DNA from: Pseudomonadota bacterium
Lineage (GTDB): Bacteria; Myxococcota_A; UBA796; GCA-2862545
DNA: 55,312 nt
Assembly: GCA_002862545.1 (NCBI GenBank)
Contig: PKDJ01000091.1
Span: 1 to 55,312 of the forward strand
Direction of reading: 5' to 3'
Position numbers and translations under genes: made by a program. This document shows, one piece after another, positions 1-2,012 of this stretch (position 1 is the first letter of the stretch; the number at the start of each line of letters is the position of its first letter). The notes under the pieces were generated by a model. That model worked only from the letters and a program-made list of their open reading frames with translations. It searched no databases and had not been told where the DNA came from.

Positions 1-754
<754 letters not shown>

Positions 755-767
755 GCGGGAGGGATCG

Positions 768-2012
768 ATGGCTGACGAGGTCTACGCCGGGAGTCCGGTC
801 GCGCGGCTGTCAGAGGCGCTCGACGGGGGGCTCGCCGCAGGGCAAGTCGGAGCCATCATCGCTCGGCCAGGCACGGGAAAGAGTGCCTTGGCCGTACATC
901 TCGCGCTCGGCTCTCTCCTCGCCGGTCACCGTGTCCTTCACGTGGTGATCGGCGAGTCTGTCGATCGTGCCCGCGAGCACTATGACTCGGTGTTCGCCGC
1001 CATCGGTCGCCGTCAGCGCAGCCGTGACTGGGCGGCTTCACAGCTTCAGGCGGAGCGGGGTCGGATGATCCTCTCCTATGCCGTCCTCGATGTCGTTCAG
1101 CTGCGCTTGGGCATCGACATGCTCCGAGGCGCTGCGGACTTCGAGCCGCAGCTCCTGGTCGTGGAGGGGCTCGACGCGTCGGTCGACGATGGCCAGCTCG
1201 CAGCGCTCGCAGCGCTCGCGGGAGAGCTGGAGTGTCCGGTGTGGGTCACGGTCTCCAGCGAGGGAGGTCTCTCCGAGGCGGCCTCGAGCCACTGCGCCCT
1301 GGGCCTGACGCTGGAGCCAGAGGGTCGCATCGTCAACCTGTCCCTCACCCATGGTGGAGGCAGCACCGAGCAGCTCACAGTGTCTCTGGACCCCAAGAGC
1401 ATGCTGGTGCTCGGTCTCGACCGCCAGCCGACGGACCCAGCAAGTGGCGCGAGCCGTCCGGAGGACTGCACCCTGTTCTCGGGTGGAGCCCGAGGCTCGG
1501 AGGAGACCTTCGGCTTGGCCGCAGAGCGCTGGGGTGTCTCGGAGGTCCACTTCACCTTCGCGGGTCACAAGCAGGCGCGCTCCACGGGAAGCAAGCTGCT
1601 CGACGAGAGGGAGCTGTCGGCCGGCGATGTGAGCTTGGTCTACGTCAGCAAGCGCCTGAACCGCACGTACAACACGGAGGGTGCCCTGATTCGCCGTGTG
1701 CTGCAGACCCTCTGGCACATGGTGAGCCGCAGCCAGCAGGTGTTCGTCGTCGGAGCGATCCAGGACGATGGCACCGTCACGGGGGGCACGGGCTGGTCCG
1801 TCGAGCTCGCGCGCATGTGGAACAAGGACCTCTGGGTCTTCGACCAGGAGCAGTCCGGCTGGTTTCAGTGGGACGGGACGACCTGGGAGCCGGGTGAGCC
1901 CATCATTCGGACCGTGCACTTCTGTGGCACGGGCACGCGGTACCTCACCGACGAGGGTCGGACGGCGATCGTGGACCTCTTTGAGCGCTCCTACGGCACG
2001 CCGCTGGACTGA
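768..2012 (+). CDS. RecA/KaiC-like P-loop ATPase with C-terminal SLOG-like domain
   Basis: Walker A ARPGTGKSALAVHLA, Walker B-like PQLLVVEGLD; C-terminal half has VFVVGAIQDDGTVTGGTGWSVELARMWNKDLWVFDQ, resembling the SLOG/LOG GGxG...E motif. RBS gggaggg upstream. Confidence 0.6.
   Translation: MADEVYAGSPVARLSEALDGGLAAGQVGAIIARPGTGKSALAVHLALGSLLAGHRVLHVVIGESVDRAREHYDSVFAAIGRRQRSRDWAASQLQAERGRMILSYAVLDVVQLRLGIDMLRGAADFEPQLLVVEGLDASVDDGQLAALAALAGELECPVWVTVSSEGGLSEAASSHCALGLTLEPEGRIVNLSLTHGGGSTEQLTVSLDPKSMLVLGLDRQPTDPASGASRPEDCTLFSGGARGSEETFGLAAERWGVSEVHFTFAGHKQARSTGSKLLDERELSAGDVSLVYVSKRLNRTYNTEGALIRRVLQTLWHMVSRSQQVFVVGAIQDDGTVTGGTGWSVELARMWNKDLWVFDQEQSGWFQWDGTTWEPGEPIIRTVHFCGTGTRYLTDEGRTAIVDLFERSYGTPLD

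Follow-up and report, generated by a model that had tools for sequence, protein, structure and literature searches.

Several described protein families provide the background against which the locus analysed here may be compared. SLOG domains are known to bind or to cleave nucleotides (PMC9503650), and spdEFG1, the elongation factor that in bacteria is related to mitochondrial EF-G1, has been described from Deltaproteobacteria, spirochaetes and planctomycetes (PMC4342817). KaiC homologues of myxobacteria have been studied in a set selected at E 1e-20 to cyanobacterial KaiC, in which the Myxococcus proteins have 470–514 aa (PMC11832031). The window, that is the whole stretch of DNA under study (55,312 nucleotides of contig PKDJ01000091.1), encodes a protein of only 414 aa which, given that threshold and those lengths, would probably have been left out of this set. 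It joins a KaiC-like ATP-binding half to a SLOG-type half and lies directly behind a gene of the spdEFG1 type. Both domains belong to known superfamilies; in the literature searched, neither their fusion nor its link to spdEFG1 turned up. The initial annotation named no described protein with a KaiC-like/SLOG architecture, and our search for SLOG, KaiC and EF-G combinations, which covered few subscription papers, likewise returned no prior description, nor any mention of spdEFG1 having a partner gene of the KaiC-like or SLOG kind. The features of the locus are the following:

14 to 754, forward strand: 3' part of fusA, an EF-G of the spdEFG1 type cut by the contig start (Pfam EFG_IV/EFG_C); conserved upstream partner
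755 to 767, forward strand: spacer of 13 nt with the ribosome-binding site GGGAGGG, as read from the sequence
768 to 2,012, forward strand: KaiC-like/SLOG fusion gene, ATG start, 414 aa
768 to 1,424, forward strand: N half (residues 1–219), RecA/KaiC-fold ATP-binding domain by profile and fold matches
861 to 884, forward strand: Walker A ARPGTGKS (residues 32–39), with the lysine in 61/63 fused and 19/19 stand-alone N halves
951 to 956, forward strand: residues 62–63 (G-E), at the position of the catalytic glutamate pair of KaiC, acidic in 37/63 fused and 15/19 stand-alone N halves
1,152 to 1,175, forward strand: Walker B LLVVEGLD (residues 129–136), with an acid at 133 in 61/63 fused and 19/19 stand-alone N halves
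1,425 to 1,460, forward strand: linker (about residues 220–231), with AlphaFold pLDDT <50 at 220–226
1,461 to 2,009, forward strand: C half (about residues 232–414), SLOG-type (cpYpsA/YAcAr-like) domain by profile and fold matches
1,479 to 1,502, forward strand: SGGARGSE (residues 238–245), putative nucleotide-binding-type loop after the SLOG families, with G243 and E245 invariant in 46/46
1,782 to 1,805, forward strand: GGTGWSVE (residues 339–346), with GGTG and E346 invariant in 46/46 and, by eye, the spacing of the LOG motif PGGxGTxxE
1,926 to 1,940, forward strand: GTGTR (residues 387–391), C-terminal strand similar to the N-terminal VGTR of DprA, in an alignment that is not significant

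The stop codon of fusA (TAA, 752–754) precedes the start of the fusion ORF by 13 nt, a spacer short enough for the two genes to be carried on one transcript, so that cotranscription appears likely; a scan limited to sigma-70-type promoters, as regards promoters, found neither promoter-like nor terminator-like sites around the fusion gene. Since homologues at E ≤ 1e-3 are found in 52 of 58 relatives (31 of 33 genera), most of them 39–58% identical over nearly the whole length, and since the gene is present in a single copy in its own genome, sequence comparison identifies 768–2,012 on the forward strand as a real gene and not a chance ORF, and the coordinates and length first annotated were exact. 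In this genome contig ends interrupt fusA: residues ~18–461 are encoded on another contig (G000:C147:14137–15459) and residues ~468–713 at the start of the window (1–754), the two being parts of one EF-G1 gene. A second, divergent EF-G, 36% identical, is found at G000:C11:18661–20670 and is probably spdEFG2.

The initial annotation had read the Walker motifs of the N half as those of a RecA/KaiC-like ATPase, and both profile and fold comparisons indeed place this half with KaiC, DnaB and RadA. It matches NCBIfam KaiC_arch_4 (1.3e-6) and PHROG DnaB (9.8e-9), its alignment profile recovers the DnaB-like helicase T4 gp41 (1e-10), RadA (1e-6) and KaiC (1e-3), and Foldseek with the full model lands on KaiC and DnaB (E ~1e-9); profiles and fold thus agree on a RecA-type fold. 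In common with KaiC, archaeal KaiC-like proteins, DnaB and RadA, the N half has Walker A and Walker B motifs, with the expected lysine and acid. However, it differs from KaiC proper in having, in the AlphaFold model, a single RecA-fold domain rather than two ATPase domains in tandem, and in carrying an attached SLOG-type domain. Also, the catalytic glutamate which in RecA/KaiC proteins follows strand 2 is not conserved, as inspected at residues 62–63 in the register of the KaiC alignment. Conservation of the Walker motifs without that of the KaiC catalytic glutamates suggests that the N half acts as a switch rather than as a motor.

A distinct set of comparisons applies to the C half, where the initial annotation saw a SLOG-like domain. 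AlphaFold (56 homologues) models the full protein as two well-folded domains with a mean pLDDT of 92.4, their relative placement being less sure (pTM 0.68), and models the C half alone with values of 92.6 and pTM 0.90. The best PHROG match of the C half is PHROG 768, 'DprA-like' (1.2e-6), tblastn against phage proteins reaches 2e-23, and hhalign aligns it with the phage family at E 2.9e-32 over 180 columns. In agreement, Foldseek superimposes the C half on an Agrobacterium phage protein (TM 0.84, E 2.6e-13), and its best PDB match is 3imk, a putative molybdenum carrier protein which we take to be a member of the cpYpsA SLOG group, at a probability of 0.97 but an E of only 0.021. These matches correspond to a SLOG Rossmannoid fold, and the possibility that the C half has an unrelated fold was thereby checked and set aside. 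Weak Pfam matches of both the fused and the phage sets include the SLOG families YAcAr, cpYpsA, LDcluster4 and DprA; for the C half none exceeds the curated cut-off, the best being YAcAr (E 0.00095, in 11/46 members). The YAcAr model returned zero matches over the 58 genomes of the class, and thus does not find the SLOG family of the fusion. A PDB sequence search with the SLOG alignment gave no SLOG match and only chance matches to HsdR; the D5_N matches near residues 345–380, which cover about 34/145 model positions, were likewise discarded as chance.

Clearly, a narrower assignment has to consider LOG and DprA. The GGTGWSVE segment has the spacing of the PGGxGTxxE motif of LOG nucleotide N-glycosidases and contains the invariant Glu346, with no proline and with tryptophan in place of threonine; however, hhalign detects no significant similarity to the profiles of LOG proteins (E 0.26) or of DprA (E 0.19 over 44 columns) from the same lineage. 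The C half was for this reason assigned to the SLOG superfamily and to no narrower family: by profiles and modelled fold it is SLOG-type, closest to the phage 'DprA-like' proteins and to the cpYpsA/YAcAr families, and not demonstrably LOG or DprA proper. In respect to cpYpsA/YAcAr (Pfam PF12694, PF10686), it has extra strands (residues 364–376) and a long inserted region. The resemblance of its C-terminal GTGTR strand to the N-terminal VGTR of DprA suggests a circularly permuted SLOG domain. Besides the residues listed above, Thr336 is invariant in 46/46 members.

The phage 'DprA-like' SLOG proteins, found in crAss-like and jumbo phages and in Klebsiella phage Pylas, appear to form the same subfamily as the C half, with which they share the fold as well as the SGGAxGxD/E and GGTGW motifs. 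They differ in being stand-alone or located within giant virion proteins, with no EF-G link, and in having Gln or Ala at the position of the bacterial Glu346 in the six phage relatives aligned. From this difference it seems that a glutamate used in catalysis or ligand binding is retained in the bacterial form and missing from the phage form. The closest phage domains are parts of giant proteins, encoded in the crAss-like phage cr113_1 by a gene some 13 kb long and in Klebsiella phage Pylas by the one annotated as virion RNA polymerase. A scan of IMG/VR with the fusion gave one match, to the N half only, at 22% identity.

The fusion is present in many families and dozens of genera across much of Myxococcota, which also settles the concern that it might be confined to one genome. 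A scan of named genomes yielded at least 80 loci, most of them under the labels Myxococcota, Myxococcales or Deltaproteobacteria and one in the cultured Anaeromyxobacter terrae; to judge from these relatives, the window itself would belong to Myxococcota. We have also surveyed 285 genomes of the phylum, at least 90% complete (own genome apart), with counts taken from the match list: the fusion occurs in about 53, both halves occur as separate genes in about 22, the N half alone in about 17 and the SLOG half alone in 6, while 184 have no clear match to either half. In a SLOG-domain tree rooted on phage sequences a single branch holds all 46 fused domains, at a support of 83 against the usual mark of 95, and the stand-alone domains fall outside it, which would be compatible with a single fusion event; the N-half tree needs three changes and does not reject one origin.

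Analysis of the gene neighbourhood points to the elongation factor. An EF-G gene lies directly upstream on the same strand in 93/97 loci, a few of the 93 being mutual duplicates, with a median gap of 15 nt and a largest one of 186, start codons having been chosen in favour of short gaps. The four loci in which the fusion does not adjoin EF-G1 (L056, L057, L102 and L206) form a subclade. Scored on the full-length orthologue of one locus (L024), the adjacent EF-G scores highest against human mitochondrial EF-G1 (844 bits), followed by Thermus EF-G (673) and mitochondrial EF-G2 (396); by these bit scores, rather than by an EF-G tree, it is assigned to the mitochondrial EF-G1/spdEFG1 type, nearer to it than to bacterial EF-G or mitochondrial EF-G2. 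No other gene family lies near the fusion in more than about 10/80 loci. The initial annotation had placed the gene between fusA and a rhodanese gene, and both neighbours are real (the rhodanese matches Pfam PF00581 at 7.8e-17); fusA is the conserved one, whereas the rhodanese is not conserved in the orientation seen in the window, and a link to it was rejected. In six loci (L044, L048, L049, L050, L051 and L055) the region immediately downstream contains a rhodanese-like ORF, on the opposite strand, with 35–39% identity to part of the rhodanese of the window.

The split forms, which occur in other families, are particularly informative as to which half is tied to EF-G1. In all 19 genomes fetched the stand-alone KaiC-like gene follows EF-G1 and any SLOG gene lies elsewhere, and a search for conserved neighbours of the stand-alone SLOG genes found none. 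Since the N half keeps this position while SLOG is elsewhere or absent, the pairing that persists is that of spdEFG1 with the KaiC-like ATP-binder, SLOG being an option added by fusion. Across the survey, spdEFG1 is present in 97/101 carriers of any part as against 76/184 non-carriers (Fisher p about 1e-22, an optimistic value given shared ancestry). The four carriers without it include the window's own genome, where EF-G1 is split over two contigs, as well as two genomes (G080 and G194) with only a SLOG gene. In the window's family (11 genomes) other members carry full-length spdEFG1, and a search at E ≤ 1e-225 detected no EF-G of the bacterial type; spdEFG1 may be the sole translocase there.

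Taken on its sequence features and gene context, the fusion protein probably responds to nucleotides as a partner of protein synthesis, and we infer that it is a nucleotide-sensing regulator of EF-G1. Our leading reading, a tentative one that we rate somewhat below an even chance, is that of a vertically inherited protein of Myxococcota which works with spdEFG1 as a nucleotide-responsive ATP-binding switch on EF-G1 or the ribosome; vertical inheritance is part of this joint estimate. Three lines of evidence lead us to favour it: the gene order and the co-occurrence with spdEFG1; the retention of ATP-binding motifs without the catalytic acid, together with SLOG residues that include E346; and the fact that the fused domains form one branch of a superfamily that binds or cleaves nucleotides. 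The N half would bind ATP, probably as an oligomer, and in many members would hydrolyse it slowly or not at all. The SLOG half would bind a small nucleotide, candidates being AMP, NAD/ADP-ribose derivatives and (p)ppGpp, and may also cleave it, given the invariant glutamate of GGTGWxxE. The nucleotide state read by this sensor or enzyme would set the state of the KaiC-fold half, the putative arm working with EF-G1, which in turn would adjust EF-G1 or the EF-G1-bound ribosome. A formulation in which EF-G1 and a dedicated KaiC-fold ATP switch make up a translation-control module, with a built-in SLOG nucleotide sensor or enzyme in some lineages, seems to us possible but rather doubtful.

What chiefly weakens the case for a switch on EF-G1 is the existence of 76 genomes in which spdEFG1 is present and the protein is not, which indicates that EF-G1 does not need it. 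The subclade away from EF-G1 and the two genomes with SLOG but no spdEFG1 also speak against it, and no residue of EF-G1 was found to track the presence of the partner, in a comparison with just 8 partner-lacking genomes. The gene order may reflect shared expression only. The presence of spdEFG1 without the protein and the displaced subclade, as well as the invariant GGTGWxxE glutamate, would suit a housekeeping nucleotide enzyme, such as a LOG-like N-glycosidase or a nucleotide salvage protein whose regulatory half depends on ATP, which shares the EF-G1 transcript only to match the output of both genes to growth rate and has no direct contact with translation. We consider this explanation rather unlikely: the part tied to EF-G1 is the stand-alone N half, devoid of a SLOG domain, about 17 genomes carry this half with no detectable SLOG gene, and the comparison with LOG profiles is not significant.

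The 'DprA-like DNA recombination-mediator protein' label of PHROG 768 and the resemblance of the N half to the DnaB and RadA folds could instead point to an accessory factor of recombination or DNA repair, in which a RecA-fold ATPase has its own DprA-like single-strand-DNA-binding domain. This fits the gene context poorly and is improbable, as the fusion lies beside the gene of a translation factor and no repair gene is conserved next to it, true DprA is encoded separately in 8/9 genomes examined, and the profile comparison with it is not significant. The initial annotation had mentioned the link of SLOG/LOG domains to conflict systems; a role as a phage-defence sensor guarding EF-G or reading NAD/ADP-ribose signals fits the context as poorly and is very improbable: SLOG domains do occur in NAD/ADP-ribose conflict systems (PMC9503650), phages carry the same subfamily and EF-G would be a plausible effector target, but the protein matches no PADLOC family (best E 0.025, to mad8, over 42 residues around Walker A), a plasmid search gave no match, no defence genes adjoin it, and it is single copy and near-universal over a whole order.

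Returning to the switch on spdEFG1, the gene order and the fused and split forms point, as a lead that can be tested, from a KaiC-like ATPase and a SLOG domain towards translation; in the literature searched, no conserved partner gene of spdEFG1 was found to be reported. Confirmation would mean that a nucleotide-responsive regulator dedicated to elongation can exist, and would suggest a role for a SLOG subfamily which in phages forms part of giant proteins. Finally, six of the loci recovered (L033, L040, L044, L052, L056 and L060) come from public records whose titles name, for example, Klebsiella pneumoniae or Bifidobacterium breve; they group with the myxococcotal set and look mislabelled.
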